Part shown: positions 35,032 through 64,000 of the stretch, one piece after another
Layout: each line of letters opens with the position of its first letter
How positions within the stretch are numbered: position 1 is the first letter of the stretch
DNA from: Bordetella sp. 02P26C-1
GTDB taxonomy: Bacteria; Pseudomonadota; Gammaproteobacteria; Burkholderiales; Burkholderiaceae_B
Direction: 5' to 3'
DNA length: 64,000 nucleotides
NCBI RefSeq assembly: GCF_009763255.1
Contig: NZ_WSJB01000006.1
Location: 1-64,000, forward strand
The notes under the pieces: model-generated
Database searches by the model: none
The model's input: only the letters and a program-made list of their open reading frames with translations
Told to the model about the DNA's origin: nothing
Position numbers and translations under genes: made by a program

Positions 35032-35759
35032 AGCGGCGCGGCTCCGATGGAAAGGCCACCGCAAGCGTACAGCGTCTGACCGGTGATAAAACGCGAATCT
35101 GCGGACAGAAAAAAGGCAATCGCACCCGCGATATCTTCGGGTTGCCCAAGCCGGCGCAAGGGAATACGGCTTTCGAGCTGTTCGCGCTGTTCCGGGGTCA
35201 TCGGATTGTTATTGCGATACAGCTCGGTCTCTACGGGCCCGGGCGAGATGGTGTTCACCGTAATGCCATGCTTACCGAGTTCCAGTGCCCATGTCCGCGT
35301 AAAACCCATCAGGCCGCTCTTTGCAGCGGAATAGGCGCTGCGACGCGGCATGCCAAGCGCCGCGCGGCTGGCGATGTTGACAATTGCACCTTGGCCAGAT
35401 CGAATCATGGACGGCAGACACGCCTGTACGCATTGCAGGGGCGCGCGCACATTGATGGCGAGGATACGATCCAGTTCCGCGACCGACGTCTCCTCCAACG
35501 TGCTCGAAGTCGTCAGTCCCGCGTTATTGACGACGCTGTCAATTTCGTACGCGCGAGCTAGTTCACTTAAAGCCGCATCTGTCGCCTGGGCATCGGCGAG
35601 ATCTACGGATATAAATGTTCCTGGAAAGGCGCGATCCGGCGCCGTTCGCGCCAGACCGATCACATGATGACCGTCAGCGGCCAAACGCGTGGCGATAGAC
35701 AACCCTATGCCGCGGCTTGCACCGGTGATCAGAGTAATACGGCGAGATGTCTGCTTCAT
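35028..35759 (-). CDS. Short-chain dehydrogenase/reductase
   Basis: The 243-residue classical SDR shows TGASRGIGLSIA, VNNAGLT, the Ser in NIASRAA and the catalytic YSAAKSG, followed by TINPGP-like TISPGPVETEL. It starts 5 bp after the Bug gene and overlaps the next SDR. Together the three form a Bug-SDR-SDR operon, probably importing and oxidising one hydroxylated acid. The start giving MKQTSRR removes 16 residues of upstream open frame that overlap the Bug gene. Confidence 0.9.
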   Translation of the reverse strand: MKQTSRRITLITGASRGIGLSIATRLAADGHHVIGLARTAPDRAFPGTFISVDLADAQATDAALSELARAYEIDSVVNNAGLTTSSTLEETSVAELDRILAINVRAPLQCVQACLPSMIRSGQGAIVNIASRAALGMPRRSAYSAAKSGLMGFTRTWALELGKHGITVNTISPGPVETELYRNNNPMTPEQREQLESRIPLRRLGQPEDIAGAIAFFLSADSRFITGQTLYACGGLSIGAAPL

Positions 35760-35764
35760 CGTAG

Positions 35765-36760: not shown

Positions 36761-36972
36761 CTCGCTCTGTCTCCCGAGTTCGTCGGACCGCAGCATCCGG
36801 ATATCGACTCTAGTAGTGATAGCCGCGCGCTTCATACCGAAGCACAGCGCGCCCATTCTGCGTGGTTTTGGAGACAAAAATTTAGCATCGGCCAACAGCA
36901 GTGACCAATACAATTTCAGGCCGTGATTTCTTTGGTTTTCCTATAAATCCGCGAACTCAAGAGGAAAAACCG

Positions 36973-48752: not shown

Positions 48753-48773
48753 GTTGCGAATAACAGTTCGGAT

Positions 48774-49727: not shown

Positions 49728-49743
49728 CTGGACTGTCTCCGTT

Positions 49744-49770
49744 CTATAAGATAGAATATGATTCTTATAG
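49744..49770. promoter_or_regulatory. Nested inverted repeat, candidate IclR operator
   Basis: CTATAAG (49744-49750) and CTTATAG (49764-49770) form an inverted repeat enclosing a second perfect one, AGAAT-ATG-ATTCT (49753-49765, sharing edge bases). It sits 17 bp upstream of the lyase start and in the AT-rich space before the divergent IclR gene, the expected site for its product. Confidence 0.5.
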
Positions 49771-49836
49771 TTGGAACAATGATAAAGCCGCCAGCCGGCT
49801 TGTCAAGTTTCGATCCACTCCATACTGGACGTTGTC

Positions 49837-50565
49837 ATGCCTCGCAAAGCCGCAACCCCCTCTCTGGCCGACACCGATGCCGCACAAGGTGGCGTGGCCG
49901 CAGTGGATCGCGCGCTCTCGCTCATGGCGGTCTTTCAGCCGGGGGACATTGCGCTCTCGCTGGGCGACTTTGCCGAGCGAACCAAGCTCTACAAGAGCAC
50001 GGCGTTGCGCTTGCTGGCCTCACTGGAACATGGCGGATGGGTACAGCGGCTAGACGACGGTCGCTACGCCCTCGGCGGAGAAATCGCCAGGCTCAACGCC
50101 ATCTATGCCGCATCGTTCTCGTTGGAAAAAGTGGTCGTGCCCGTCTTGCGTGAACTCGTCGCCGCCACCGGCGAAAGCGCGGCCTATCATGTCAGGCAGG
50201 GTGATGATCGTCTTTGTCTATATCGTGTCGATTCGCCACACCCGGTGCGGGATCACATCCGCGCGGGTGACCTGTTGCCCCTGACTCGGGGTAGCGGGGG
50301 TCGGATCTTGACGGCGTATGATCCCGTGCTGGGATTTGCCGATGGCCCGGATAAAGACTTGTACCAGCGCATCCGCGCAGATGGCTACTTCACGGCGGTG
50401 GGCGACAGGCTGACCGAGGTGGCGGGTATCTCTGCGCCGGTATTCTTCGCATCTGGTACGTTAGCAGCGGCTGTGACGCTGACCGCGCCGGCTCATCGAT
50501 TCGACACCAAGCATCTGGATGCGGTACTACGCGCCGCCAAGCGCCTTAGCAAGGTAGTCGGCTAA
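49837..50565 (+). CDS. IclR family transcriptional regulator
   Basis: The 242-residue protein has a winged helix-turn-helix near residues 42-75 (LGDFAERTKLYKSTALRLLA) and the IclR effector domain with LPLTRGSGGRILTAYDP. It is divergent from the lyase-CoA-transferase-Bug operon and is its probable regulator. The following 198 bases to 50763 show no gene or clear terminator. Confidence 0.93.
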   Translation: MPRKAATPSLADTDAAQGGVAAVDRALSLMAVFQPGDIALSLGDFAERTKLYKSTALRLLASLEHGGWVQRLDDGRYALGGEIARLNAIYAASFSLEKVVVPVLRELVAATGESAAYHVRQGDDRLCLYRVDSPHPVRDHIRAGDLLPLTRGSGGRILTAYDPVLGFADGPDKDLYQRIRADGYFTAVGDRLTEVAGISAPVFFASGTLAAAVTLTAPAHRFDTKHLDAVLRAAKRLSKVVG

Positions 50566-50763: not shown

Positions 50764-52200
50764 TTACGCAAAACGCGCAGGAATGCGCTTATGCCAAGGC
50801 GCCGCGCGCTCCAACTCGGCAGACAAACGCAATACCAAGTCGTCACGACCAAATTGGCCCATGATCTGCACGCCGACCGGCACGCTTTCCGACGTCCAAT
50901 GAATCGGCACACTGGCAGCCGGCTGACCGCTCGCATTCATCACGGCCGAGAAAGTCGCGTACTTGGCAACCTTTTCCCGGAAATCGATGAACTTGCCCTG
51001 CATGGCCAGATAGCCCAGCTTGACCGGCAGTTGGCACAGCATCGGCGACAGGATCAGATCGTACTGATCGATATCGGATTGCAGTACCCGGCCCACGTGA
51101 TGGAAGCAATTGATCGCCTCAACATACTGCTCCGCCGTCATGGCGCGACCCAGTTCGTAGCCGTCCAACATGGCGGGCTCGAGGTCATCTTCGCGCAGCG
51201 AGCGCTTGAGGCCGGCCAGCTTTGCATTGGTGGATGCCACGATATTGGCAGCCAGCACATTGACGTGACTGCGAACGAATTGCCCATAGTCCAACGCGGG
51301 CGGCTTCGCATCGATTACCTCGTGACCCAGCTCCCTGCACAGCTGGGCAGCGTATCGCACGCCATCCAGGCACTCCTGCGCGACCGGGATACCATCCCAG
51401 GCCTCGGTCCATACGGCTATGCGCAAAGGCTTGCGCTTGGCCTCCATCACGACCGACAGCAATCGCTGTTCAGGGTCCGTGCTGTCGTACGGCGCGCCTA
51501 GTTCGCGGCCGATGGTGGCGTCCATGGCGGCCGCAGTGTCGCGCACGGTCCAGGAGAGCACGCCATCCGTGCCCATGCCGCCCCAGATTTCGCCCTTGGT
51601 CGGCCCCGTGGGGATGCGGCCTCGCGTCGCCTTGAATCCATAGACACCGCAGCAAGCGGCTGGAATACGGATCGAGCCGCCACCGTCACTGCCATGCGCC
51701 AACGGCACAATTCGCGAAGCGACCGCAACGGCGGCGCCGCCACTGGAGCCCCCGGTGGAACGAGTCGCGTCCCATGGGTTGATCGTAGGGCCTTGGTTGG
51801 CCAGGGCCTCGGTGGTGGGTGCCATACAAAACTCGGGCACCGTGGTACGAGCAAACGGTATCAGGCCCGCCGCTTCGAAGCGCTGCGTCAGCGTCGCGTC
51901 AAAACTGAACTTCGTATCGGTAAATAGCTTGGACCCTAAGCTCATGGGCAAGCGTTTGGAGGCCAGGCTCGAATCCTTGAGCAGGAACGGGATGCCTTGG
52001 AACACGCCTTCGTGCTTCCAGTCGGCGGCCCATTGACGCGCTTCGTCATAGCGCTCGTAGCGAATGGCGTTCAGCTCCACCCCGCGCGAACTGGCAAGCG
52101 AAATCGCATGCTCCATCAGTTCGCTCGAGGTCACTTCCTTTTTCTGTAGCAAATCCGCGAGGGCCAGGCCGTCGAGTTTCTGATATTCGTTTTCCGTCAT
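50764..52200 (-). CDS. Amidase signature family hydrolase, NylA-like
   Basis: The 478-residue enzyme has the amidase Ser-cisSer-Lys triad: Lys75 (PFLLKDSS), Ser152 (GGSSGG) and Ser176 (GSDGGGSIRIPA). The 24-residue spacing of the two serines is that of the family. Overall features (ISLASSRGVELNAIRYERYD, TEALANQGPTINPWD) resemble 6-aminohexanoate-cyclic-dimer hydrolase-type amidases. It is the last gene of the P450 gene run, 22 bp after the IclR gene, and probably hydrolyses an amide formed in that pathway. Confidence 0.88.
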   Translation of the reverse strand: MTENEYQKLDGLALADLLQKKEVTSSELMEHAISLASSRGVELNAIRYERYDEARQWAADWKHEGVFQGIPFLLKDSSLASKRLPMSLGSKLFTDTKFSFDATLTQRFEAAGLIPFARTTVPEFCMAPTTEALANQGPTINPWDATRSTGGSSGGAAVAVASRIVPLAHGSDGGGSIRIPAACCGVYGFKATRGRIPTGPTKGEIWGGMGTDGVLSWTVRDTAAAMDATIGRELGAPYDSTDPEQRLLSVVMEAKRKPLRIAVWTEAWDGIPVAQECLDGVRYAAQLCRELGHEVIDAKPPALDYGQFVRSHVNVLAANIVASTNAKLAGLKRSLREDDLEPAMLDGYELGRAMTAEQYVEAINCFHHVGRVLQSDIDQYDLILSPMLCQLPVKLGYLAMQGKFIDFREKVAKYATFSAVMNASGQPAASVPIHWTSESVPVGVQIMGQFGRDDLVLRLSAELERAAPWHKRIPARFA

Positions 52201-52222
52201 GTTGTATCCTTTTATCCGCCCA

Positions 52223-53029
52223 TCAGCGATGCGCGTTCCATTGACTCAAGGCACGTGCCGCCTCGATGGCCAATGGGCTGTAACGTTTACAAAATTCCTC
52301 AACGGTCCACTCGCTGAGCGAACCCGCTATATGAATCGCGCCGACCGGCATGCCGTTGTGTTCGCGAATGGCGGCCGCAAGCACCACCTCTCCGAGCAAG
52401 GTCTCTTCTTGCTGAAAGGAATAGCCGTCGCGACGCGCCTCGCGCACTTTCTCCCAAATCTGCTCGGGCTCGGTCAGCGTCTTGGGCGTGACCATGGTCA
52501 ATGGCAGGCTATCGGCAATGATTTGCTCGACCACTTCGTCGGGAAGTACCGCCATGCAGGCTCGCCCACCGGTGGAAGTGCAAGCGGGCATGCGCCGTCC
52601 CGACAGCGTGGCGTAAAAACGCTCGTTTCTACTTTGGGTTCGGGCCGCGTAGACCATCGTCAGATTGTCGTGCTGGGCATCGAACAGACTCAGGTCGACG
52701 CGCTCGTTCGTCGTACGCCGGAGATCCGCGAGAATCGGCATGGCCTTTTCAATGAGAGGATTGGATCTCAGGTAGTCAAAAGACCGGTCCAGCAACACCC
52801 GCCCCAGCGTAAAACTGCCGCGCTCGGTCTGCTCGAGGTAGCCGCGGCTGGCCAGCGTCTGACAAATGCGCTGCGCGGCGCTTTTGTTGACGCCCGCGGC
52901 AGACGCGATCTCGCTCAGTGACTTGATATCGGGCCTTTCCGCAAAAGCTTCCAAGACGTCCAAGGCTCGGGATACCGATTGCAGCAACAACCGTTCGTCG
53001 ATAGGGGGAAAGCGGTGCTTGATGCCCAT
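52223..53029 (-). CDS. IclR family transcriptional regulator within the P450 gene run
   Basis: The 268-residue regulator has a winged helix-turn-helix (SLSEIASAAGVNKSAAQRIC) and an IclR effector domain with GGRACMAVLPDEVVEQII. It is transcribed with the catabolic genes, between ferredoxin and amidase, and not divergently as IclR genes usually are. It is the only regulator in the P450 region inside this window and so the leading candidate to bind the 23-bp palindromes at 62775 and 62949. The start giving MGIKHRF is preferred; a longer frame adds 10 residues. Confidence 0.9.
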   Translation of the reverse strand: MGIKHRFPPIDERLLLQSVSRALDVLEAFAERPDIKSLSEIASAAGVNKSAAQRICQTLASRGYLEQTERGSFTLGRVLLDRSFDYLRSNPLIEKAMPILADLRRTTNERVDLSLFDAQHDNLTMVYAARTQSRNERFYATLSGRRMPACTSTGGRACMAVLPDEVVEQIIADSLPLTMVTPKTLTEPEQIWEKVREARRDGYSFQQEETLLGEVVLAAAIREHNGMPVGAIHIAGSLSEWTVEEFCKRYSPLAIEAARALSQWNAHR

Positions 53030-53072
53030 AGCTAATGATCTTCCAGATGGCCCTTGCAAATTGTCGGGCGCA

Positions 53073-53396
53073 TCAGAGCTGACTCGCGGGCAATGTGACC
53101 GTCAAACCGTCCAGCGCATCCGACATCTCAATCTGGCAGCATAAGCGACTATTGGGTTGGCGTTCGCACGCCGTAGCGTCCAACATATCGTTTTCCAGCT
53201 CCGACACGGGTGGCAGCTTGTCGGCCCAGGCTTCGTCTACATAGACGTGACAGGTGGCGCAGGCCAGCGACCCGCCACACTCGCCCAGGATGCCCTTTAC
53301 GTGCCCATCCAGCGCGGCGAACATCATGCTGTCGCCGTTCTTAGCCTCGATTTCGGTCTGGCCGCCATCGGCGGAGATAAAGGTGATTTTCGGCAT
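53073..53396 (-). CDS. [2Fe-2S] ferredoxin, putidaredoxin type
   Basis: The 107-residue protein has the vertebrate-type/putidaredoxin cluster ligands Cys40, Cys46, Cys49 (GECGGSLACATCHVY) and Cys87 (SRLCCQI). Such ferredoxins shuttle electrons from a FAD reductase to bacterial class I P450s. It lies 29 bp downstream of one P450, and a matching reductase gene begins at 62984, so the electron chain is complete within the locus. Confidence 0.96.
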   Translation of the reverse strand: MPKITFISADGGQTEIEAKNGDSMMFAALDGHVKGILGECGGSLACATCHVYVDEAWADKLPPVSELENDMLDATACERQPNSRLCCQIEMSDALDGLTVTLPASQL

Positions 53397-53425
53397 ATTG
53401 ATACGTATCTACGATGGAAATTAGG

Positions 53426-54646
53426 TCAGGCCGCCTTGAGGCGCAGCGGTAGGGACTTCAGGCTGCGCAGCACATTGTTGATGCGCCGCACGGGGGGGCC
53501 TTCCAGGCGGATTTCGGACACGCACTTGATGATCTCGCTCAAGATGCATTCACCTTCCAGGCGCGCGATCATTTGACCGATGCACATGTGAATCCCATTG
53601 CCCAAGGCGACGTGGCCCAAAGTGGAACGGGTCAGATCGTAGTCATCCGGTCTGTCCCAGAAATCCGGATCGCGGTTGGCCGCGCCCAGGAACATCATGA
53701 CCTTGCGATCGTTGGGGATCAGGGTGCCGTCCACCACGACATCACGCATGGTCAAGCGGCCCACGGTCTGAATGGGCGTTTCCAAGCGCATGGCCTCTTC
53801 CAACGCGGGACGGACGCGCTCGGGCTCCTGGCGCAGCAAGGCATATTGATCCGGGTTCTGGGCCAGATACCACAGCGCCCCGGAAATGGCGCTACTGGTG
53901 GTGTCCAAGCCACCGCGCAAGAATGAACGGACCAGCAATGGCGCCAGTTCGGGCTCTAGTTCGCCTGCATCGACGGCCTGGTATAGACGATCGCCAAAGC
54001 CGCCGGGCAAGAGGTTCTCGCGCCGCATCATCGCGTCATGCCAGGGCATGATTTTGTCAGCCTGTTTCTGAGTCGCCTCGTAACGCGCGTTGCGCGGTCC
54101 CTGGGCATCGAAATTCAGCGATCCAAGCAAAAACAGATTCTCGCGGGTCTCAGGCGTGACAGGCAGGCCCAACGCGGGGGGAAACGTCGTGGAGATATAG
54201 GTTTCCGAGATATCGACCACACCGTCGACGTACTCTTGTTGCAGCACGGTATCGACGAGCTTTTCGGCTTCCTTGACGAACACTTCGCGCCAGGATCGAA
54301 TCAACTGCGGCGACATGGCTTTCTGCATCGCGGAGCGCACGTAGCTATGTCGCGGCGGGTCGACTTCAACGATCGCGCTGGGCGGGCGCCAGGCGCCCGG
54401 TTTGCGGATATCCGCCACGCCCGAGCCACCGGTTGACGAAAAAGTTTGCCAGTCCTTCAGGGCCGGCTGCACGTCGCGATGGCGCGCCATCACGTACATG
54501 TCGTACTTGGGCAGGAAAGCCACCGGCCCGGCGCGACGCATCTCGGCAAAGGTCTCGAACGGAGACTCCAGCACCGCCTCGTCATAGGGATCGATGTCCA
54601 GCACAGGCGCTTGCCTGAACGCTTCCGTCGTCATGGTACCGCTCAT
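53426..54646 (-). CDS. Cytochrome P450, CYP199-like
   Basis: The 406-residue soluble P450 has the I-helix oxygen-activation motif GGLDTT, the ExxR motif in EAMRLE and the heme loop GNGIHMCIGQ with ligand Cys355. The C-terminal region (ARLEGECILSE, then INNVLRSLKSLPL) resembles the CYP199A enzymes that O-demethylate or hydroxylate para-substituted benzoates; this is from memory of that family. A paralogue lies at 56301. The start has an AAGGAA ribosome site; it follows the hydrolase gene by 9 bp. Confidence 0.93.
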   Translation of the reverse strand: MSGTMTTEAFRQAPVLDIDPYDEAVLESPFETFAEMRRAGPVAFLPKYDMYVMARHRDVQPALKDWQTFSSTGGSGVADIRKPGAWRPPSAIVEVDPPRHSYVRSAMQKAMSPQLIRSWREVFVKEAEKLVDTVLQQEYVDGVVDISETYISTTFPPALGLPVTPETRENLFLLGSLNFDAQGPRNARYEATQKQADKIMPWHDAMMRRENLLPGGFGDRLYQAVDAGELEPELAPLLVRSFLRGGLDTTSSAISGALWYLAQNPDQYALLRQEPERVRPALEEAMRLETPIQTVGRLTMRDVVVDGTLIPNDRKVMMFLGAANRDPDFWDRPDDYDLTRSTLGHVALGNGIHMCIGQMIARLEGECILSEIIKCVSEIRLEGPPVRRINNVLRSLKSLPLRLKAA

Positions 54647-54655
54647 GGTGATTCC

Positions 54656-55486
54656 TTACTGATTCTCGTGCGCCGCCGACCAGGCCTCGGCGATTTCCTG
54701 TCCCGTGGCAAACCAGACACCGGGGAACGTTTTGATGTACTGGATCATTTCGCGCAGCAAGGCGAGACGACTGGGACGACCCGTGATTTGCGGGTGCATG
54801 ACCAGGTCGTATAGACCGCCCCACTGATAGATCTCCCGGAACTCGGCCTTGAAGATCTCGCCCACATGGCTGTTGGAGCAAATCGTGCGAGGGCTCTTGA
54901 CGGAGAAAAGCATGTAAGGCGCATCGTCCAGGCTCCAGTGCCAGGGCAGTTCGATCACCCCTTTGCTGCCGTCGGGCATGATGTGACGATACGGATTGAC
55001 ACTGTCCATCAATGACGTGTCATAGAGAAAGTTGTGCTTCTTGAGGAGTTCGAAAAGCAGGGGGCTGACCTCGCCGGCCGGGGAACGATAGCCCTTCGGC
55101 ACTACGCCCACGGTGCGTTTGAGCGCCTCGAGGCCTTTTTCCATCTCTTCGATCTCGGCGTCGGCATTGGCATCCGACCAGCGGTGGGAATAGCTGTGAT
55201 GCCCGACTTCATGACCGCCCTTGAGAATCAGCTCCACCTTATCGGTATGGTTTTCAGCCGTCCACCCGGGCACATAGAAAGAAGCCTTGACGTCCTCTTC
55301 GTATAGCAGTTCGCAGATCTTGGGCACGCCTACTTTGGCTCCGTAAGAGCCTTGGCTCAGAATGCCAGGACGATTGACGTTGGCTGGATCGCGCGAGGTC
55401 CAAAGGGTTTCCGCATCGAAATCGAACGTCAGCATCACGGCGCAGCGCGCGCCGTTCGGCCATTTGACACTCATATCGTGTTTCAT
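54656..55486 (-). CDS. NodB-fold polysaccharide deacetylase / PuuE-like hydrolase
   Basis: The 276-residue protein has NodB homology motifs: TFDFDAETLW with the catalytic Asp pair, the zinc-binding His-x3-His in GHHSYSHRW, and GYRSPAGE. There is no signal peptide, so it is cytoplasmic and unlikely to act on cell-wall polysaccharide. Cytoplasmic members of this fold include PuuE allantoinase and cyclic-imide hydrolases, which open ring amides. In this P450 locus a ring-opening C-N hydrolase is a reasonable inference. The start giving MKHDMSVKW has a GGGAG ribosome site. Confidence 0.85.
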   Translation of the reverse strand: MKHDMSVKWPNGARCAVMLTFDFDAETLWTSRDPANVNRPGILSQGSYGAKVGVPKICELLYEEDVKASFYVPGWTAENHTDKVELILKGGHEVGHHSYSHRWSDANADAEIEEMEKGLEALKRTVGVVPKGYRSPAGEVSPLLFELLKKHNFLYDTSLMDSVNPYRHIMPDGSKGVIELPWHWSLDDAPYMLFSVKSPRTICSNSHVGEIFKAEFREIYQWGGLYDLVMHPQITGRPSRLALLREMIQYIKTFPGVWFATGQEIAEAWSAAHENQ

Positions 55487-55524
55487 GGTGTTTACTCCCA
55501 CTCACATGACGTCTTGGTCATGAA

Positions 55525-56283
55525 TCAGTAATTAGGGGTGTAGCGGGCGGCCAGATAGCCACCATCAACGGGTAACGTCACGCCACACACAAAAGAGGCA
55601 TCCTCAGAGGCCAGGAAGGCAATCACGGCAGCCTGCTCTTCGGGCTGACACACCCGGCCCATCGGGGTCGAGTCCACCATCAGCTTCACATAGCTGGGAT
55701 TTTGCAAGTGGCCCGCCGTCATCGGGGTCACCACCACGCCCGGCGCGATGGCGTTGACCCGTATGCCCAGATGAGCGACCTCGCTCGTCAACTGCTGCGT
55801 GAACTGCGTCACGCCCGCCTTGGCCACCGCATAGGCCGTGGTACCCGGATAACCCACCATGCCGAAAATCGATGACAGGTTCACAATACTGCCGCCCGGC
55901 TGAGGCAGGTGCGGCAGCACAGCGCGCGTGATGCGCAGCAGAGAAATCAAATTGATATCGATGATGCGCGACAGGCTTTCGTCATCCGACTTCAGCAGGT
56001 GCTTTGAACCCCCTACCCCGGCATTATTGACGAGGACATCGATCCGGCCGGCATGCGCGAGCGCGGCCTCGACGATTGTGTCGCCCGCCCCGGGCAATGC
56101 CACGTCGAGCACCAGCCCCTGCCCGCCGACGCTCTTGGCGGTCTCCAGCACTTCCGGCAGCAGGTCAACCAACAGGACCTTCGCCCCCTCATCGGCAAAA
56201 CGCTTGGCCGTCGCCGCACCGATACCGCGCGCGGCTCCGGTGACGATGACGGATTTGCCCTCGAATCTATGCATGGTGGACAT
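55525..56283 (-). CDS. Short-chain dehydrogenase/reductase
   Basis: The 252-residue classical SDR shows TGAARGIGAATA, VNNAGVGG, the active-site Ser in NLSSIFG and the catalytic YAVAKAG, ending GVTLPVDGGYLA. It probably oxidises a hydroxyl made by the neighbouring P450s. Several in-frame ATGs exist; the one giving MSTMHRFEGK is chosen because GGAG lies 6-7 bp before it. An ATG at 56304 would overlap the P450 stop. Confidence 0.9.
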   Translation of the reverse strand: MSTMHRFEGKSVIVTGAARGIGAATAKRFADEGAKVLLVDLLPEVLETAKSVGGQGLVLDVALPGAGDTIVEAALAHAGRIDVLVNNAGVGGSKHLLKSDDESLSRIIDINLISLLRITRAVLPHLPQPGGSIVNLSSIFGMVGYPGTTAYAVAKAGVTQFTQQLTSEVAHLGIRVNAIAPGVVVTPMTAGHLQNPSYVKLMVDSTPMGRVCQPEEQAAVIAFLASEDASFVCGVTLPVDGGYLAARYTPNY

Positions 56284-56300
56284 AACGCGCTCCGTAATAG

Positions 56301-57506
56301 TCATGCCGACAGCGTCAAAGGCAAGGTCTTGAGGGTACGCAGGGCATTGTTCAGGCGCGGCTCTGCCGGCGCTCGCAGCGTGAGCTTGCTCGCGCGCTTG
56401 ATCAGCGCCTTCAGCACGCATTCGCCTTCCTGGCGCGCGATCATCTGACCAATGCACATGTGCACGCCGTGACCCAACGCCAGATGCCCGACCGGGTTGC
56501 GCTGGATGTCGAACTCGTCTGGACGCTCCCAGAATTCCGGGTCGCGATTGGCCGCGCCCAACTGCAGCATGACCTTTTTATCTGCTGGAATCAGCACGCC
56601 ATCGACCACGACATCACGCATGGTGAGACGATAGGCCGTCTGTGAGGGCGTTTCCATGCGCATGGCTTCGTCTAGCGCGGGACGCGCCAGCGCCGGGTCC
56701 GCGCGCAACTGTTCGTACTGCGAGGGATCCTTCGCCAGATACCACAACACCGCGGAGATCATGCTGATTGTCGTGTCCAGGCCGCCGCGCAAGAATGACC
56801 GGATCAGCAGCGGCGCCAGCTCGGGTGCCATCTTGCCTTCATCCGCGGCCTCGAAGATCTTGATGCCAAACCCACCGGGCAACATCGCATCACGCTGCAT
56901 GCTGGCCTGCGCCCACTCTTTGATCGCTTCCGCACGTTTCTCCGTGGCCAAATACCGCGCGTTACGCGGTCCCTGACTATCGAAGTTCAGCTGCCCCATC
57001 AAATTCCAGTTTTCACGCAGGTTCGGGGTTTGCTTAATTCCCATGGCCTTGGGAAACGCCGTCGACACATACGCCTCGGCCAGGTCATGCACGCCATCGA
57101 TGGTCTGCTTTTCCATCAGCGCGTCGAGAAGCTTTTCCGCCTCTTCCTCGAACGTCTCATGCCAGCTGCGAACGACCTGCGGCGAGAGAATGCGCTGCAT
57201 CACCGTGCGTACCTGGGTATGCTCTGGCGGATCCGCGTCACCAATGGGGCTGCGCGCGCGCCATGTGTCGGGCTTACGCACATCCGTCAAGCCAATGCCA
57301 CCGGAGGACGAAAAGTCTTGCCAGTTTTTCATGGCCTCCTTGACGTTACGGTACCGGCCGATGGCGTAGACGTCATACTGCTTCAGGTAGACGGCGGGCG
57401 CCTGACGAAGCTGCGCAAACATCTCGAAGGGCGATGCAAGCACACTGTCTTCATAGGGGTCGATGTCGAGCTCAGGCGCGGCGGCCGCTGTGGCGATGTC
57501 GTTCAC
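56301..57506 (-). CDS. Cytochrome P450, CYP199-like (paralogue)
   Basis: The 401-residue P450 has GGLDTT in the I-helix, ExxR in DEAMRME and the heme loop GHGVHMCIGQ with ligand Cys351. It is clearly paralogous to the 53426 gene along its whole length, including the FSSSGGIGLTDVRKP-type N-terminal region. The start is GTG, overlapping the stop of the upstream SDR by 3-4 bp, so translation is coupled. Two related P450s sharing one ferredoxin suggest two successive or alternative oxidations. Confidence 0.93.
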   Translation of the reverse strand: MNDIATAAAAPELDIDPYEDSVLASPFEMFAQLRQAPAVYLKQYDVYAIGRYRNVKEAMKNWQDFSSSGGIGLTDVRKPDTWRARSPIGDADPPEHTQVRTVMQRILSPQVVRSWHETFEEEAEKLLDALMEKQTIDGVHDLAEAYVSTAFPKAMGIKQTPNLRENWNLMGQLNFDSQGPRNARYLATEKRAEAIKEWAQASMQRDAMLPGGFGIKIFEAADEGKMAPELAPLLIRSFLRGGLDTTISMISAVLWYLAKDPSQYEQLRADPALARPALDEAMRMETPSQTAYRLTMRDVVVDGVLIPADKKVMLQLGAANRDPEFWERPDEFDIQRNPVGHLALGHGVHMCIGQMIARQEGECVLKALIKRASKLTLRAPAEPRLNNALRTLKTLPLTLSA

Positions 57507-58273
57507 GCTTTAAGACCCCCGTCGACCGGCATGGTCACGCCCGTGGTGTAGCTGGCGGCGTCGCTCAGGAAATACAACACGGCGTCGCCGATCTCATCGG
57601 CCAGACCAAAGCGGCCCATGGGAATGCGGGTGCGGAATTGATCGACGGTCGGCGGTGCGGCTCCTCCCATTTGAGAGGCCACCACGAACATCTCCTGTGC
57701 CATGGGCGTATCGATGGTGCCCGGGCAGACGCAGTTCACGCGTATGCCTTCGTGCGCGTGATTCAATGCGAGGCTGCGTGCGAGCATGGTCACCGCGCCC
57801 TTGGAGGCCGAATAAGCCGCCAGGAACTTCGATCCGCCCAGACCCGCGGTCGAGGACATCAAGACGATGGAGCCCTTGCCCAATTCCCGCATCTGCGGCA
57901 CCAGGGCTTTAACGGCCAGCCAGGAACCCTTGACGTTCACGTCGAAAAGCTTGTCCCACTCTTCTTCCGTGTAGTCAACCGCCATCTTCGGAATGCCATT
58001 GATACCGGCCGAGGTCACCAGGAACTCGGCCGGGCCGAGCGCCTCGCGTGACGCCGCGGCGGCCGCGTTGACGTCAGCCGACGAGGACGCATCGCCGACA
58101 TACGACACGGAACCGGGACACTGTGCCTGCACGTCCTGCAAACCCTTGGCGTCCCGGTCGAACAGCATCAAGCGCGCGCCTTCGCGCGCCAGCTTTAATG
58201 CCGTTGCCTTGCCCAGACCCGATGCCGCACCCGTAACAAAAGCCACCCGCCCTGCGAATCTCTGCTCAGACAT
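57503..58273 (-). CDS. Short-chain dehydrogenase/reductase
   Basis: The 256-residue SDR has TGAASGLGKATA, TSAGINGIP in place of the usual NNAG, the Ser in LMSSTAG and the catalytic YSASKGA, ending TMPVDGGLKA. It overlaps the ABC ATPase gene by 8 bp and the P450 by 4 bp. The start giving MSEQRFAGR lies behind GAGGAAAAGAGC. Confidence 0.9.
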   Translation of the reverse strand: MSEQRFAGRVAFVTGAASGLGKATALKLAREGARLMLFDRDAKGLQDVQAQCPGSVSYVGDASSSADVNAAAAASREALGPAEFLVTSAGINGIPKMAVDYTEEEWDKLFDVNVKGSWLAVKALVPQMRELGKGSIVLMSSTAGLGGSKFLAAYSASKGAVTMLARSLALNHAHEGIRVNCVCPGTIDTPMAQEMFVVASQMGGAAPPTVDQFRTRIPMGRFGLADEIGDAVLYFLSDAASYTTGVTMPVDGGLKA

Positions 58274-58985
58274 GCTCTTTTCCTCCAAGGTAGAACTCCC
58301 GCAACTCGTCCATGGCGATGCCCTCGCCGACTTCCCGTTGATAAGCAATGCGGCCGCCACGGATCACGTAGATGTGGTCGGCAATGTCCAGCGCCATCCC
58401 CACGTTCTGCTCGACTAGCAGCAGGGTCAGGCCGAGTTCGCGCAGATTCAGGATCGCTTCGGCGATTTCCTCGACCACTTTGGGAGCCAGCGCAGCGGAC
58501 GGTTCGTCCAACAGCAGCATCGTGGGGCGCGACATCAACGAGCGGCCAATCGCAAGCATCTGACGTTCACCGCCCGACAGCATGGCGGCAGGCACTTTGC
58601 GCCGCTCGCGCAGACGCTTGAAACGTTGATAGACTGATTCGATATCCTCGGCGATACCTACCCGGTCCTTGCGGCGGTGGTAGGCGCCCATGAGCAGGTT
58701 TTCTTCCACGCTCATTTCGCCGAATACTTCTTTACCCTGCGGCACGAGCGACAAGCCCATGGCCGAGCGGCGTTCGACAGGCACATCGTTGATGGGCCGA
58801 CCATCAAAAACGATTTCGCCCTCTTGCGGAGACACAATCCCCACGATGCTCTTTAGCGTGGTGGATTTGCCGGTGCCGTTGCCGCCCAGCAGCGCGACCA
58901 AACCGCCCTTGGGCACTTCCAACGTCACGCCATGAAGGATGCGCGTGCGGCCGTAGCCCGCGATGATATTGTTAAGCCTTAGCAC
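58266..58985 (-). CDS. Branched-chain-type ABC transporter ATP-binding protein (LivF-like)
   Basis: The 239-residue ATPase has Walker A GGNGTGKST, signature LSGGERQ and Walker B MLLLDEPSAAL, in LivF order and length. A GTG start at 58985, reading VLRLNNIIAGYG, is chosen because it has a GGAAG ribosome site and gives a normal LivF N-terminus; the ATG at 59054 would add 23 atypical residues inside livG. It pairs with the LivG-like ATPase to energise import. Confidence 0.92.
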   Translation of the reverse strand: MLRLNNIIAGYGRTRILHGVTLEVPKGGLVALLGGNGTGKSTTLKSIVGIVSPQEGEIVFDGRPINDVPVERRSAMGLSLVPQGKEVFGEMSVEENLLMGAYHRRKDRVGIAEDIESVYQRFKRLRERRKVPAAMLSGGERQMLAIGRSLMSRPTMLLLDEPSAALAPKVVEEIAEAILNLRELGLTLLLVEQNVGMALDIADHIYVIRGGRIAYQREVGEGIAMDELREFYLGGKEHV

Positions 58986-59763
58986 GTCGCTTCCACCCCG
59001 AACCGATATAAGCCTCAACCACGACCGGATCGTTGACCACAACCTCCGGTTCACCTTGAGCGATCATTTCGCCACTGTCCAAGACCGCAACACGGTCGCA
59101 CAGCTCTCGCACCACGCGCATGTCGTGCTCGACCAGCAAGATGCTCATGCCGAACTCATCGCGCATGCGACGGATGATGGTAATGAGACGATCCACATTA
59201 GGAGGAGACAACCCAGCGGCTGGCTCGTCCAACAAAAACAGCTTGGGTTCGCTAATGAGCCCACGCGCCAACTCCACCATGCGTTGCTGTCCAATGGACA
59301 GCGCCGTGGCCGGACGCTGGGCGAATTTCTCCAGCTCGAACCAAGCCAATAATTCACGCGCCTTGGCGCGCACCTGGTCTTCTTCCTGTTTGGCCTTCGG
59401 GTTGCCCGCGATGCTATCCAGCGTGCTGGAATTCATCGAAATATGACGCGCCAACAACAGATTGTCCTCGACGCTCAGGGAGCCAAACAGACGGATCATC
59501 TGAAAGCTGCGCGACATGCCAAGGCGGGCACGCTGATAGGGCGGCAGCGCGGTGACGTCCTGACCACAAAAGGTGAACGAACCGCCATTGACCTGCAATT
59601 CCCCCGTGATCAGGTTGACCATGGTGGATTTGCCCGAGCCATTCGGCCCGATCAGGCCGACGATCTCTCCCGAGTTAACCGTCAGGCTGGCGTCCTTGAC
59701 CGCGACTACCCCACCGAAACGGCGATGGATGTTTTTCGCCTGGAGAATGACATTGCTGCTCAT
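58972..59763 (-). CDS. Branched-chain-type ABC transporter ATP-binding protein (LivG-like)
   Basis: The 263-residue ATPase has Walker A GPNGSGKST, the LivG-type insert around residues 100-130, a signature region TALSIGQQRMVELARGL and Walker B LFLLDEPAAGLSPP. The signature reads LSIGQ where most ABC proteins have LSGGQ, with Ile for the first Gly, a variant seen in some LivG proteins. It overlaps the permease gene by 4 bp. Confidence 0.93.
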   Translation of the reverse strand: MSSNVILQAKNIHRRFGGVVAVKDASLTVNSGEIVGLIGPNGSGKSTMVNLITGELQVNGGSFTFCGQDVTALPPYQRARLGMSRSFQMIRLFGSLSVEDNLLLARHISMNSSTLDSIAGNPKAKQEEDQVRAKARELLAWFELEKFAQRPATALSIGQQRMVELARGLISEPKLFLLDEPAAGLSPPNVDRLITIIRRMRDEFGMSILLVEHDMRVVRELCDRVAVLDSGEMIAQGEPEVVVNDPVVVEAYIGSGWKRRAKA

Positions 59764-60713
59764 GCCTGGGCCTCCTTCATTTCACGCAGCTTGCGCGCGC
59801 GGCCGGCAATACCCTCGGGCAAAAGCGCAATGGCCAACACCAAGATGATCCCGAAGAACAACATACGATAGCGGGCATAGTCACCCAACATCTCTGGTAG
59901 CAGCGTCAGCAGCACCGCCCCCAATATGGGGCCGTAGAAAGAGCCGCGACCGCCCACGATCATCATGGCAACTGCCGTGCAAGAGATCCAGATCGTGTAG
60001 TCATCAGGGGTGATGTTGCCCATGTAATGGGCCATCATCACGCCTGCCGCACCGGCGAAAGACGCCGACGCCACAAACGCCGTGAGCTTGGCGCGCGTCG
60101 TGTTCAAGCCGATGGCGCTGGCCAGCACTTCATCATCGCGCACCGCGACCCATTCGCGTCCCAGCCGCGAATTCACCAGGCGCGCGGCGATAAAAACGAG
60201 AATCACGGTGAAGACCAGGATCATCCAGTAATTGGATCTGAGATCGCTGACGGTAAAGAAGGTGTGCCCGAAAAGGCCGACATCTCCTACCGGAGGCACG
60301 GCCAGACCGTTTTGCCCGCCCGTAAACGAGGTCCATTGCACCAGACCGAGATACACGATGGTCTGAAACGCAATGGTCACGATGGCCAGGAAGTGCCCTT
60401 TAAGCCGCAAGGCCGGGATGCCCAGCAACAAGCCGCACAGGCCGGTGAGGATGATGCCCGCGGGCAGATGCACCCAAAATCCCGTGTGCAGGTCCCGGGC
60501 CATGATGCCGGCGGTGTAGGCGCCAATCCCGAAGAACGCGCCTTGAGCGAACGAGAACTGCCCGCAAAAGCCCGTCACCAGGTTCAGACCCGTCGTCAGG
60601 ATGACGTAGATCAGCATCAATAGCAGCACCGCCACGATGTAGCTGCCGGAGGTCAAGGCGGGCGCTAGCGCCAGCAACGCGACCACAATCGCGAGAGAGA
60701 GGTTCTTTTTCAT
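59760..60713 (-). CDS. Branched-chain-type ABC transporter permease (LivM-like)
   Basis: The 317-residue multi-pass permease shows the LivM segments GLNLVTGFCGQFSFAQGAFF with GIGAYTAG, RDDEVLASAIGLNTTRAKLT and MMIVGGRGSFYGPILGA. It forms the translocation path with the LivH-like protein. Both ends overlap neighbours by 4 bp. Confidence 0.94.
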   Translation of the reverse strand: MKKNLSLAIVVALLALAPALTSGSYIVAVLLLMLIYVILTTGLNLVTGFCGQFSFAQGAFFGIGAYTAGIMARDLHTGFWVHLPAGIILTGLCGLLLGIPALRLKGHFLAIVTIAFQTIVYLGLVQWTSFTGGQNGLAVPPVGDVGLFGHTFFTVSDLRSNYWMILVFTVILVFIAARLVNSRLGREWVAVRDDEVLASAIGLNTTRAKLTAFVASASFAGAAGVMMAHYMGNITPDDYTIWISCTAVAMMIVGGRGSFYGPILGAVLLTLLPEMLGDYARYRMLFFGIILVLAIALLPEGIAGRARKLREMKEAQA

Positions 60714-61582
60714 GAGCGTTGAAACGTTTTGCCGAACAGACCCTGCGGACGCACCAGCAAGACAGCGATGACAATCACAAAGCCGACGATGTCGCGAAGC
60801 CCGTTGCCCAGATAGGCCGAGGTCAGCGATTCGATGACGCCCAATAGCAGACCGGCCGCTGCGGCACCGGCCACATTACCCATACCGCCCAAGATGACAA
60901 CGGTGAAGGCCTTGAGAACAATCATGTTGCCGATGATGGGATAGACCATGTAGACCGACGACATGAGGAAACCCGCCACGCCGGCCAGCAACGCCGCCAC
61001 GATAAAGGCGATGATTGCGACCCGGCGCACCTGGACGCCACACAGACTGGCCACCGTGGCGTGTTGCGCCATGGCGCGCAGGCTGCGGCCGGTCCAGGTA
61101 TAACGCAGCACCGCATACAGCAGGGCAATCAGCAACACCATGGCAATCGGGATCAGCACCTGCTGTAGCGGCAAGTACACCGGGCCCATCTCCACGCCGA
61201 TGGTCGAGAACTCGGTTTGCAGCATCATCGGTGTAGGCCCAAAGGCCAAAAGCGCAGAGTTCTGCAACACCACGGCCAAGCCAAAGGACGCGATAATCGA
61301 ACTCGTGGCGTCGCGATCCTTGAGCATCTTGTGAAGCAGGCCTTCCGCGCCAATACCCAAGATGATGGCAACCATTAGCACGCCACCCAGGGCAGCCCAG
61401 ATAGGCCAGCCAAAGTTAGTCACCAGAATCAAACCGGTATACGCGCCCAGCATATAGAACTCGCCATGCGCGAAGTTCACCACATGCAAGATGCCGAAGA
61501 TCAGGGTCAAGCCAACGGCCACCAACACGTAGTTGCTGCCATTGACGATCCCGTTAGCCAGGTATTGCAGTAACAGATCCAC
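60710..61582 (-). CDS. Branched-chain-type ABC transporter permease (LivH-like)
   Basis: The 290-residue permease shows LivH features: YVLVAVGLTLIFGILHVVNF followed by AHGEFYMLGAY, RAMAQHATVASLCGVQVRRV and VVILGGMGNVAGAAAAGL. It is 21 bp downstream of the binding-protein gene and overlaps the LivM-like gene. Confidence 0.94.
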   Translation of the reverse strand: MDLLLQYLANGIVNGSNYVLVAVGLTLIFGILHVVNFAHGEFYMLGAYTGLILVTNFGWPIWAALGGVLMVAIILGIGAEGLLHKMLKDRDATSSIIASFGLAVVLQNSALLAFGPTPMMLQTEFSTIGVEMGPVYLPLQQVLIPIAMVLLIALLYAVLRYTWTGRSLRAMAQHATVASLCGVQVRRVAIIAFIVAALLAGVAGFLMSSVYMVYPIIGNMIVLKAFTVVILGGMGNVAGAAAAGLLLGVIESLTSAYLGNGLRDIVGFVIVIAVLLVRPQGLFGKTFQRS

Positions 61583-61603
61583 GATCCCTTTCGCCTTGTC
61601 AGA

Positions 61604-62752
61604 TCAATTGAGAACGCGCTTGCCGTTCTTGATGACGGCAATGAAGTAGGGATAGTCCACACTTCCTTTTTCATCGAATGCGGCCGTCGTGCCTTCAGGA
61701 CCCAGACCGATCTTGAAGTCCTTCATACCGCTCATCAGCATCTTCTGAATGGCCTCGCCGTCCGGTTTCCCAACACGGCGCAGGGCTTCCAGACCTACCG
61801 CGGTGTGGAAATAACCCAGCGTATTGAGCATGCCCGGCTCGTAGCCATAGGCCTTGACGAACCGCTCGCCAAACTCACGGCCCACTTGGTTGGGTGTGGA
61901 GATTTCGTAGGCGGTCGCCACCGCGAAGCCTTCGGAAGCCGGGCCTGCCAACTTGATGAAGTCATCACTGAGCATGGAGCCCGAGCCCACGAATTGCGTG
62001 CGCAAGCCCACCGATGCTGCCTGACGCACAATGGTCGCGCCGTCAGCGGCCCAGCCGGCGATATAGACCACATCAGGCTTGAGGGTACGGATGCGGGTCA
62101 GGATGCTAGAGAAGTCCTGATCGCCGATGTTGAAAGACTCATTGGCCACGATCTTGCCGCCAGCGCCTTCCACCACGGTGATCGTTTGTTTGGCCAGGTC
62201 CTGCCCATAGCTGGTCGTATCGTGCAGGATCGCGACTTTTTTACCGTTGAACTTCTCGACGATCGCCATGGCTGTGTCGTAGCCCTGACCCTTGCTGTCG
62301 GCAAAGGCGCGGAAGAACCAGGGATCGCCCGGCGTGTTGTTATCGGTCGCCACGTGGCTGGTCGAGCCGCCCGACAACATGGGCACCTTGAGTTCCTTGG
62401 CGACCTTCATCGCGGCAACCACGACAGCCGAGGCATAGGTGCCAACGATAAAGGGCACTTTCTCTCGCTCGACCAATTTGCGTACCGCGGTCGCGCCCTT
62501 GGCGGTGTTGCTTTCGTCGTCTTCGACAGCGAGTTCGATTTTGCGTCCCAGCACGCCGCCTGCGGCGTTCGCTTCGGCCACGGCGAGCTGTACGCCCTTG
62601 AAGACCTGATTGCCCTCGATGGAACCATTACCCGAAAGGGGCAGCATGACGCCAATGCGAATCGGCGCGGCATCTTGCGCCATGACCAGCGTGGGCAGAG
62701 CGAGACTGGCACCCAGCATTCCTAGAATCTGACGACGGGAAAAATTCGACAT
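61604..62752 (-). CDS. ABC transporter periplasmic substrate-binding protein (LivK-like)
   Basis: The 382-residue binding protein has an N-terminal SRRQILGMLG twin-arginine-like signal, then RIGVMLPLSGNGSIEGNQVF and KGVQLAVAEANAAGGVLGRK of the leucine/amide-binding Peripla_BP_6 fold. Relatives bind amino acids, amides and aromatic acids. It is the first gene of the long P450 gene run. The start giving MSNFSRRQ has an AAGGGGG ribosome site; an upstream in-frame ATG at 62791 lies inside the palindromic site. Confidence 0.93.
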   Translation of the reverse strand: MSNFSRRQILGMLGASLALPTLVMAQDAAPIRIGVMLPLSGNGSIEGNQVFKGVQLAVAEANAAGGVLGRKIELAVEDDESNTAKGATAVRKLVEREKVPFIVGTYASAVVVAAMKVAKELKVPMLSGGSTSHVATDNNTPGDPWFFRAFADSKGQGYDTAMAIVEKFNGKKVAILHDTTSYGQDLAKQTITVVEGAGGKIVANESFNIGDQDFSSILTRIRTLKPDVVYIAGWAADGATIVRQAASVGLRTQFVGSGSMLSDDFIKLAGPASEGFAVATAYEISTPNQVGREFGERFVKAYGYEPGMLNTLGYFHTAVGLEALRRVGKPDGEAIQKMLMSGMKDFKIGLGPEGTTAAFDEKGSVDYPYFIAVIKNGKRVLN

Positions 62753-62774
62753 CACTACCCCCTTAAAAAATAAA

Positions 62775-62797
62775 GTCGTATTTATTGGCAATACGAC
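62775..62797. promoter_or_regulatory. 23-bp palindrome, copy 1 (operator-like), over the importer promoter
   Basis: Arms GTCGTATT (62775-62782) and AATACGAC (62790-62797) are perfect inverted repeats with a 7-base centre. A reverse-strand -10-like TATAAA lies at 62807-62802, which would place the transcription start inside this palindrome. The site is 23 bp upstream of the LivK-like ATG. A lone half-site TCGTATT is at 62820-62826. The geometry suggests repression. Confidence 0.8.
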
Positions 62798-62903
62798 AAC
62801 ATTTATATGATGGCCAGTATCGTATTAAGTCGTCACCATCACAGTTAGGAAAATCCCTTAATTTCAACTAATTAGTGGAAAACCCCAGGAGGGTTAAACC
62901 TCT

Positions 62904-62909
62904 TTGACA
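62904..62909 (+). promoter_or_regulatory. Perfect -35 box (TTGACA) ahead of the reductase gene
   Basis: TTGACA stands 40 bp before the second palindrome on the forward strand. At 17 bp spacing the -10 region (GAGCAT at 62927-62932) is poor, so the promoter may be weak or need help. A start near 62940 would put palindrome copy 2 just downstream. Confidence 0.4.
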
Positions 62910-62948
62910 AACTCAGAAACTTAAGTGAGCATTTTGAATATCGAAACA

Positions 62949-62971
62949 GTCGTATTGATCGACAATACGAC
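62949..62971. promoter_or_regulatory. 23-bp palindrome, copy 2 (operator-like), ahead of the reductase gene
   Basis: Arms GTCGTATTG (62949-62957) and CAATACGAC (62963-62971) are perfect inverted repeats with a 5-base centre. The copy agrees with copy 1 at 20 of 23 positions and ends 12 bp before the reductase ATG. One palindrome at each end of the divergent promoter region implies joint control of both transcripts by one dimeric regulator. Confidence 0.8.
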
Positions 62972-62983
62972 CCATTAGTGATC

Positions 62984-64000
62984 ATGCATAAAAATATTCT
63001 TATCGTCGGCGGCGGACATGCCGCCTCTCAACTTTGCGGCAGCCTGCTTGAAGGCGGCTATACCGGTGCGCTGACACTGATTAGTGAAGAGGCGTGCCTG
63101 CCCTATCACCGCCCTCCGCTTTCCAAGGCGTATTTATCCGAGGACAAAGTGGGCCCGCCGCTACTGCGCCCAGCCTCCGCATATGGTCACGCGCAGATCC
63201 TGTTGAATACACGCGTCACCGCCATCGACCGAACTCAACGCGAAGTGACGCTCAGCACCGGGGAACGTCTGCCCTACGATGCGCTGGTGCTGGCAACCGG
63301 CACGCGCGCGCGCAAGCTGCCGGATCTGCCCGACACGCTGGACAATGTCCACTATCTGCGTACCCATGCGGACGCGGAGCGCTTGCGCGACGCCTTCACC
63401 AAGGCATCGTCGCTGACCGTGCTGGGTGGCGGATTCATCGGGCTGGAAATTGCGGCCACTGGGGCCAAGCTGGGCAAACGCGTCGAAGTGTTTGAAAATG
63501 CACAGCGCTTGCTCGCGCGCGCGGTTTCGCCAGAGATCTCCGAAACCGTGGCAGAGAACCTGGTGCAAGCCGGCGTCGCGCTGAACCTGGACTGCGGACC
63601 GGTCACGTTCGACGTGGCCGATCAGCGCGTCACCGCCCTGAATACGGTCAAACAACAGCACCCGGTGGAACTCTTGGTCGTTGGGATTGGCGCTGTCCCC
63701 GAAGTCTCGCTGGCCCAGGCGATCGGCCTGACCTGCGAAAACGGGATCCGCGTGGACTCGCACATGCGCACAGAAGATCCGGCGATTTTTGCCATCGGCG
63801 ACTGTGCGCATTTCCCGTATGCCGCATGGAATCGCCCCATGCGCCTGGAGTCGGTGCAAAACGCCAACGACCAAGCTCGCACCTTGGCGGCAGTACTGCT
63901 GGACCAGGACCCGCAACCGTACGCGGCCCTGCCCTGGTTCTGGTCGGATCAGGGCAGCTTGCGGCTGCAGATCGCCGGACTCATGCCCGCACAGGGAGAA
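62984..64000 (+). CDS. Ferredoxin reductase, putidaredoxin/rhodocoxin reductase type (partial, runs off window)
   Basis: The frame is open from ATG 62984 to the window end (339 codons; family members have about 400-420). It has two Rossmann motifs: ILIVGGGHAASQLCGSL for FAD and LTVLGGGFIGLEIAATGAKL for NADH. The segment YHRPPLSKAYL and the FAD-binding DPAIFAIGDCAHFP are typical of oxygenase-coupled ferredoxin reductases. It would reduce the [2Fe-2S] ferredoxin at 53073 and so drive both P450s. It is divergent from the importer-P450 gene run. Confidence 0.93.
   Translation, partial: MHKNILIVGGGHAASQLCGSLLEGGYTGALTLISEEACLPYHRPPLSKAYLSEDKVGPPLLRPASAYGHAQILLNTRVTAIDRTQREVTLSTGERLPYDALVLATGTRARKLPDLPDTLDNVHYLRTHADAERLRDAFTKASSLTVLGGGFIGLEIAATGAKLGKRVEVFENAQRLLARAVSPEISETVAENLVQAGVALNLDCGPVTFDVADQRVTALNTVKQQHPVELLVVGIGAVPEVSLAQAIGLTCENGIRVDSHMRTEDPAIFAIGDCAHFPYAAWNRPMRLESVQNANDQARTLAAVLLDQDPQPYAALPWFWSDQGSLRLQIAGLMPAQGE

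Follow-up and report, generated by a model that had tools for sequence, protein, structure and literature searches.

The window analysed here, 64,000 nucleotides of Bordetella sp. 02P26C-1 (contig NZ_WSJB01000006.1, positions 1 to 64,000), carries a locus of thirteen reverse-strand genes that runs from 62752 to 50764, together with a divergent gene for a ferredoxin reductase (FdR). Read from 62752 downwards, the thirteen genes encode LivK, LivH, LivM, LivG and LivF, which form an importer, a short-chain dehydrogenase (SDR1), a cytochrome P450 (P450B), a second short-chain dehydrogenase (SDR2), a hydrolase of the CE4 family, a further P450 (P450A), a ferredoxin (Fdx), an IclR-family regulator and an amidase. 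Judged from the genome comparisons below, the locus is a real and conserved unit, and this unit is probably co-regulated. It consists of an SDR1-SDR2-CE4 core, mostly accompanied by the LivKHMGF importer, plus an exchangeable amide hydrolase, and among the genomes searched a clade of class I P450s occurs only together with this core. We regard it as an even call that the whole serves as a catabolic unit for an amide-bearing acid, meaning that the unit, the acid substrate and amide-hydrolysing catabolism all hold. The specific route from a lactam to an imide is a tentative proposal that we consider rather doubtful. The catabolic locus is probably controlled by its own IclR regulator and appears to have moved between proteobacteria. 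In the open-licence literature we found no paper on such a locus, in line with an earlier sequence-only reading of the window, whose author knew of no described pathway with this gene set.

Conservation of the locus

In total we found 19 loci with a P450 of this clade across Bordetella, Hyphomicrobiales and Oceanicella. Bordetella thus has the set in common with soil bacteria that are only distantly related to it. These are the window and L034-L036 (Bordetella, L036 being B. hinzii), L037/L084 (one metagenome-assembled genome of Hyphomicrobiales), L038 (Pinisolibacter), L039 (Oceanicella), L040 (Microvirga brassicacearum), L085-L091, L092/L109 and L093-L095. The full gene order is kept in the close relatives L034 and L035 with protein identities of 65-87%, and a partial order was observed in 16 more loci. 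As the order is retained in relatives, the arrangement in the window is not due to chance.

Within the genus, to which the window's genome, G015 and G171 belong, the CE4 gene was present in 3 of 9 genomes, the window's own counted. In the family sample 4 of 200 genomes, again counting the window's own, had a P450 of at least 59% identity and 15 others had CYP199-like genes of 42-46%. At an E value of 1e-85 CE4 was found in 2 of the 398 genomes of the phylum sample, one of them the window's own. For Hyphomicrobiales, the order of Microvirga, we observed CE4 in 18 of 397 genomes, and for the order of Oceanicella in 2 of 292. Among plasmid records 1086 match P450A, none of them with at least 60% identity and the best with 44% among the matches listed. 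A scan of named genomes, which detects close relatives only, gave 7 loci out of 16 candidate stretches. One passage of a published account counts Bordetella among the genera with no or fewer P450s (PMC9148083).

The P450 clade was found in 14 of the 397 Hyphomicrobiales genomes, every one of which belongs to the 18 with CE4 and has its P450 gene at the locus, whereas an overlap of 14 × 18/397 = 0.6 genomes would be expected if the two were independent; this count is not a probability, because the sampled genomes are related. In four further genomes (G607, G657, G694 and G738) CE4 is present without this P450. Since the P450 always comes with CE4 but CE4 is sometimes alone, the P450 follows the module and not the reverse.

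Substrate pocket of the P450s

P450A (53426..54646) and P450B (56301..57506; PF00067) are 59% identical to each other and show 43.3% and 41.0% identity, respectively, to CYP199A4 (chain 7tnf), a well-studied P450 that acts on lignin acids. A P450 is assigned to a family if it shares at least 40% identity with a member, and by this rule both belong to CYP199. According to one section of PMC11854964, the carboxylate of the substrate sits at Arg92, Ser95 and Ser244 of CYP199A and its ring at Leu98, Phe182, Phe185 and Ala248. The equivalent pocket of PbdA, as far as one part of PMC11530827 describes it, also includes a Phe, which we assigned to position 298 by offset.

We aligned 21 locus P450s (3 of them incomplete; the G809 copy was left out) with 17 CYP199-like controls of the same family. 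The carboxylate anchor is kept, with R92 and S95 in 18 of 18 and S244 in 19 of 19 covered locus rows, and R243 is retained too. The substitutions F185Q, S247R and A248G were observed in 19 of 19 covered locus rows and in none of the 17 controls, all of which have Phe 185, Ser 247 and Ala 248. Residue 247 presumably faces the pocket. F182 is retained, whereas L98, F185, A248 and F298 are substituted in every covered locus row and kept in 17 of 17 controls. The changes further include F298V/A and L98V/G; P450B has 98G, 295S and 298A, and Thr252 is replaced by Ser in L093-L095. The hydrophobic aromatic pocket of the CYP199A benzoate demethylases is thus not preserved in the locus P450s. The sequence-only reading had proposed a methoxy- or alkyl-bearing nitrogen compound; an aromatic version of it is weakened by this remodelling, and we judge a methoxy-aromatic substrate unlikely.

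In the P450 tree the locus rows are split from the controls at 100/100, albeit with a long-branch warning. The P450 and the CE4 of B. hinzii cluster with alphaproteobacterial sequences. Support for the two groupings is moderate (85/84 and 90/83, respectively), and they point to transfer.

Promoter palindromes and regulation

The gap between LivK and FdR contains the palindrome GTCGTATTG-N5-CAATACGAC at both ends, a perfect copy on the FdR side (62949..62971) and a copy with one mismatch on the LivK side (62775..62797). Only 0.03 such palindromes would be expected in the window, and none of 100 shuffles had two. No other place in the genome matches with 2 mismatches or fewer; two further sites have 3 and the reversed control gave 0. 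Of 12 scanned genomes, five (G000, G015, G171, G603 and G734) have the spaced palindrome at the locus, and over the same 12 genomes the control with reversed arms was found in one place, in G600. With the opposite arm order, CAATACGAC-N4-GTCGTATTG, there was no site at the locus.

A related 16-bp form, CRATACGRYCGTATYG, was detected in the promoters of 21 of 24 testable loci (29 loci were scanned, five of them without a testable region), each matched by at most 1 of 200 block shuffles. It was not found in L044, which has a GntR regulator, L098 and L099. The loci L042, L044, L098, L099 and L101 were unseen when the consensus was built and gave 2 positives and 3 negatives. As the consensus was refined on most of the other loci, only L042 and L101 are clean positives.

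The regulator (52223..53059; PF01614 and PF09339; the codon-trained call starts at 53029) is a member of the IclR family. Against the PcaR/PcaU/PobR model TIGR02431 it scored 147.2 bits, below the cut-off of 284.75. It is presumed to be the reader of the palindromes and may bind them. With palindromes at both ends of the LivK/reductase gap, the importer, the enzymes and the reductase are probably under a common switch. Another near-perfect palindrome, TTTCAACTAATTAGTGGAAA, lies at 62862-62881 in the middle of this gap and is unlike the operator motif.

Constant and variable parts

SDR1 (57503..58273), SDR2 (55525..56283) and CE4 (54656..55501) were present in all 19 P450 loci, with SDR2 displaced in L039. 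IclR was found in 18 (none was seen in L095), the reductase in 16 (not in L038, L039 and L095), the full Liv importer in 14, the ferredoxin in 9 and P450B in 3, all three from Bordetella. The final hydrolase was the amidase in 5 loci and a D-succinylase-like enzyme of the penicillin-acylase family in 4, never both. L107, which flanks L089, additionally has a 30% amidase match at a distance of ∼11 kb from the P450. Three relatives, Roseomonas L041, Sulfitobacter L042 and Neorhizobium L045, have the SDR-SDR-CE4 core and no P450 within the retrieved 28 kb, and the more distant CE4 relatives Agrobacterium L044 and L096-L101 have none in the retrieved stretch; beyond these stretches the P450 search covered only the 397-genome Hyphomicrobiales sample. 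Gene calls in relatives were codon-trained, and some scanned proteins in loci of high G+C content were false open reading frames. On this comparison the constant core is SDR-SDR-CE4, and the second P450, the ferredoxin, the importer and the last amide hydrolase vary.

The sequence-only reading had claimed one dedicated pathway with a fixed set of thirteen genes, to be tested by a search for co-occurrence and to be abandoned if the importer or the hydrolases varied independently of the P450s. The locus does behave as one unit, which includes an importer, a P450 chain and an IclR regulator, and the set recurs in 19 loci. However, a fixed set proved too strong a claim, as importer, P450B, ferredoxin and hydrolase vary, and the core without a P450 in L041, L042 and L045 is part of the outcome that would have spoken against it.

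Several genes were observed at single loci or groups of loci. In L085-L088 a thiamine pyrophosphate (TPP) enzyme is followed by a biuret-hydrolase-like isochorismatase and a membrane-type protein without a Pfam match. Genes of the DAO family (Pfam) are divergent from the P450 in L088, L089 and L091; we take them to resemble sarcosine oxidase subunits. A flavoenzyme of the old yellow enzyme type lies in the loci L036 (1763-2995) and L037 (13305-14417) and also in L042.

Binding protein and hydrolases

LivK (61604..62752) belongs to the branched-chain amino acid binding family PF13458 (251.5 bits). Glu226 of LivJ is, as we assume, the acidic residue that binds the amino group of the ligand. At this position we found Gly in 16 of 16 LivK rows (15 genes; rows below 45% identity such as L044 were left out), whereas Atu2422 has Asp. 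A ligand with a free alpha-amino group is thus unlikely.

In CE4 the residues D27, D29, H102 and H106 are invariant in 29 of 29 rows; we take them to be the acidic and two-His metal-site motif. The protein thus shows the acidic and two-His pattern of CE4 metal-dependent hydrolases. It is not a PuuE equivalog by TIGR03212, with 74.7 bits against a cut-off of 424.6. The nearest solved structure, 3rxz, is named only polysaccharide deacetylase, and an AlphaFold2 model from 7 sequences was too poor, with a mean predicted local distance difference test (pLDDT) score of 53. The SDR YxxxK motif was present in 23 of 23 and 24 of 24 rows. Four other patterns were badly drawn and carry no weight: the two for CE4, a His motif and a C-terminal motif, matched 9 and 7 of 29 rows, that for the glycine motif of SDR1 matched 8 of 23, and one acylase pattern matched 0 of 5. 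Near CE4 in P450-less loci we located hydantoinase B at ∼2 kb (L099), ∼5 kb (L097), ∼9 kb (L101) and ∼12 kb (L044).

The amidase of the window (50764..52200) has the amidase signature (PF01425, 277.9 bits) together with the GGSSGG serine motif. This motif is present in 6 of 8 amidase rows and missing in the second copy of L045 (35-37% identical) and in L098. The nearest solved relative of the window amidase is NylA (3a2p, best E value 2.5e-66), the two chains of which are the only solved structures with an E value below 1e-45. The acylase of other loci is closest to the D-succinylase 7eby (1.4e-218), shows the GSNNW motif in 6 of 6 rows (two rows being the same gene) and has an N terminus that by eye is not signal-like. 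A penicillin-acylase-family gene with 42% identity is located elsewhere in the window's genome (G000:C3:328035-330398), outside the locus.

Proposed pathway and alternatives

Given the retained anchor and altered pocket of the P450s and the absence of the acidic residue from LivK, the probable substrate is a carboxylic acid that is neither an alpha-amino acid nor a plain methoxybenzoate. Our best guess is uptake of the acid, oxidation and hydrolysis of first a cyclic and then an open amide. LivK would bind a carboxylic acid without a free alpha-amino group. The reductase and the ferredoxin would supply P450A and, in some Bordetella, P450B. P450A would grip the carboxylate as CYP199A4 grips benzoate, in a pocket made polar by Q185 and R247, and would hydroxylate the far end of the acid, most likely beside a ring nitrogen. 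Oxidation of the hydroxyl to a carbonyl by the SDRs may then turn a lactam into an imide-like ring, and the metal-dependent CE4 would open this ring. The remaining amide would be cut by the amidase, or elsewhere by the D-succinylase-like penicillin acylase, leaving a carboxylate together with either an amine or an amino acid. A cyclic-amide setting would fit the NylA-like amidase and the hydantoinase B genes near some P450-less CE4 relatives. Conceivable substrates would include N-substituted pyrrolidones and acids resembling pyroglutamate or hydantoin, none of them favoured over the others.

In its full form the proposal is of a new aerobic pathway: a P450 derived from CYP199, with an added I-helix Arg, oxidises a carboxylated lactam, SDRs, CE4 and unrelated amide hydrolases finish the breakdown, and one IclR operator travels between alpha- and betaproteobacteria, with the P450 doubled in some Bordetella. 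The I-helix Arg would re-tune the P450 towards an acid whose other end is also polar or charged, and the doubled P450 might serve two related substrates or two successive steps. We hold this complete account, including both of these parts, to be possible but on the unlikely side.

Several observations weigh against the main explanation, a unit for the catabolism of an amide-bearing acid. The retrieved stretches of five P450 loci (L085 and L088-L091) have no importer, and at 10 of 19 neither amidase nor acylase was seen. In 7 of these ten a TPP enzyme follows CE4; the copies are 94-98% identical to that of L086, so the seven loci represent one lineage, and the one that was scanned is acetolactate-synthase-like. 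Hydantoinase B had no match in any P450-locus stretch searched, nor in the stretches of the P450-less L041, L042, L045, L096, L098 and L100, and hydantoinase genes are common in any case (4-13 per genome in six genomes). In 7 of the 12 scanned genomes the spaced palindrome is not at the locus (three have no site and four have sites elsewhere only), and the 16-bp consensus was scored on largely the same loci on which it had been refined. Finally, most CE4 enzymes are deacetylases, which makes ring opening just one option for the core hydrolase.

This last point leads to the alternative that CE4 is an ordinary deacylase acting on an open N-acyl compound, while the P450 and SDRs trim a side chain, the amidase or acylase takes a second acyl group and no ring is opened. 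The matches of the PF01522 family are indeed mainly deacetylases, and the exchange of amidase for acylase suggests N-acyl substrates, as the acylase is nearest to D-succinylase, an enzyme which part of one report applies to N-succinyl amino acids (PMC7431475). However, one pathway would then require two separate deacylases, the enzyme closest to the amidase is a cyclic-amide hydrolase and hydantoinase A/B genes lie near some P450-less CE4 relatives; we consider this alternative unlikely. An ordinary CYP199A route, in which para-substituted benzoates are O-demethylated or hydroxylated and the remaining genes act on side chains, would account for the identity of 43% and 41% to CYP199A4, the identical carboxylate anchor, the class I partner genes and the best NCBIfam match of the regulator, which is of the PcaR/PobR type though below cut-off. 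Nevertheless, none of the covered locus rows retains Phe185 or Ala248, which line the aromatic pocket in CYP199As, or Phe298, the scanned locus proteins included no recognisable enzyme for aromatic ring cleavage, and CE4 and the amide hydrolases would be left unexplained, which makes this route improbable.

P450s, SDRs and amidases are also found in biosynthesis, and all three families are in the locus, so we considered the making or tailoring of a secondary metabolite instead of nutrient breakdown. A complete ABC importer heading the operon and an IclR regulator inside it argue against this, and among the scanned locus proteins no assembly-line, ligase or exporter gene was seen; the idea is very improbable. 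Equally remote is a loose assembly of neighbours with no common function. The importer, ferredoxin, reductase, P450B and last hydrolase do vary between loci, but each of the 14 Hyphomicrobiales genomes that have the P450 also has CE4 at the locus, and distant lineages have a common palindrome and the same gene order.

If CE4 does open a ring, as we propose, CE4 enzymes would gain a catabolic role beyond deacetylation and allantoin. Thanks to the shared operator and the exchangeable hydrolases, a small number of proteins would suffice to test the substrate class.

Locus layout and neighbouring genes

Place, order and families of the thirteen genes and the reductase were borne out by Pfam searches. 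The tight spacing noted in the sequence-only reading holds as well, with intergenic gaps of 29 bp at the most and an overlap at several junctions. Where LivF, SDR1 or SDR2 is involved the overlap is approximate, because we chose the start of these genes ourselves. For LivK, which has an RR-containing, signal-like N terminus, the ATG at 62752 put forward by that reading is the most likely start given the N terminus of the protein (the longest open reading frame begins at 62791). LivH (60710..61582) and LivM (59760..60713) are permeases (PF02653), and LivG (58972..59763; PF00005, PF12399) and LivF (58266..58985; PF00005; longest frame from 59054) are ATPases. SDR1 and SDR2 (both PF13561) have longest frames from 58360 and 56457, respectively. 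CE4 (PF01522) is a NodB/PuuE-like hydrolase of the polysaccharide-deacetylase family, and Fdx (53073..53396; PF00111) is a [2Fe-2S] ferredoxin. FdR, a flavin adenine dinucleotide (FAD)-dependent ferredoxin reductase similar to HcaD/AndAa (PF07992, PF14759), starts at 62978 on the forward strand, crosses the window edge at 64000 and ends at contig base 64192 (404 aa). The catalytic motifs are intact, namely ExxR and the cysteine loop of the P450s, the ferredoxin cysteines, SDR YxxxK and amidase GGSSGG; in the alignment the acidic and His residues of CE4 are likewise intact. The G+C content of the locus does not differ from that of the rest of the window (59.8 and 60.1%).

Flagellar genes flank the catabolic locus on both sides, with non-flagellar stretches interspersed. 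Within the window they lie at 1880-24598 and 40447-41928 (FliF, FliI-type ATPase, FliK, Flagellin_N protein, FlgK, FlgI and FlgE), and past the reductase FlhA and FlhB follow at 64239-67528 of contig C38. Adjoining the locus, at 46558-50565, there is a catabolic-looking block with an HMGL-like lyase, a class III coenzyme A-transferase, a TctC receptor and a divergent IclR gene. As a candidate lower pathway this block was rejected: against the 13 stretches compared it gave only matches of 27-38%, to common families and all in L031, and it is placed outside the unit. Another stretch for the catabolism of amino compounds at 26288-36913 contains two DAO-type FAD oxidoreductases, an M19 dipeptidase and a TctC receptor.

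Comparison with known systems

The proposed route can be likened to the lumichrome (riboflavin) operon of Nocardioides simplex, where, according to part of PMC12746152, P450 oxidation of a nitrogen heterocycle is followed by serial amide hydrolysis. The features given there for that operon are a single-chain P450, a xanthine oxidase and Rieske and extradiol dioxygenases (PMC12746152). Riboflavin or lumichrome catabolism was rejected for our locus, as no xanthine oxidase, Rieske or extradiol gene is among its 14 proteins. PuuE allantoinase is of the same CE4/NodB-type family as the locus CE4 and in the alignment has the GRP.R segment in common with it, but where the locus CE4 has its second His PuuE has a gap. 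D-succinylase of Cupriavidus is nearest to the acylase that replaces the amidase in other loci and is not in the window locus. NylA, the 6-aminohexanoate-cyclic-dimer hydrolase, is the nearest solved relative of the locus amidase, although no nylon-type neighbours were recognised at the locus.

The CYP199A systems (CYP199A2 and CYP199A4 of Rhodopseudomonas palustris, PbdA/PbdB of Rhodococcus jostii RHA1) resemble the locus in the carboxylate residues and in having ferredoxin and reductase genes alongside. In contrast to them, the locus P450s form a separate clade with an altered pocket and are set among CE4, SDRs and an amide hydrolase. What would be a catabolic module in 19 loci thus contains a P450 clade that pairs the CYP199A carboxylate anchor with a swapped distal pocket, a natural experiment in P450 substrate switching.

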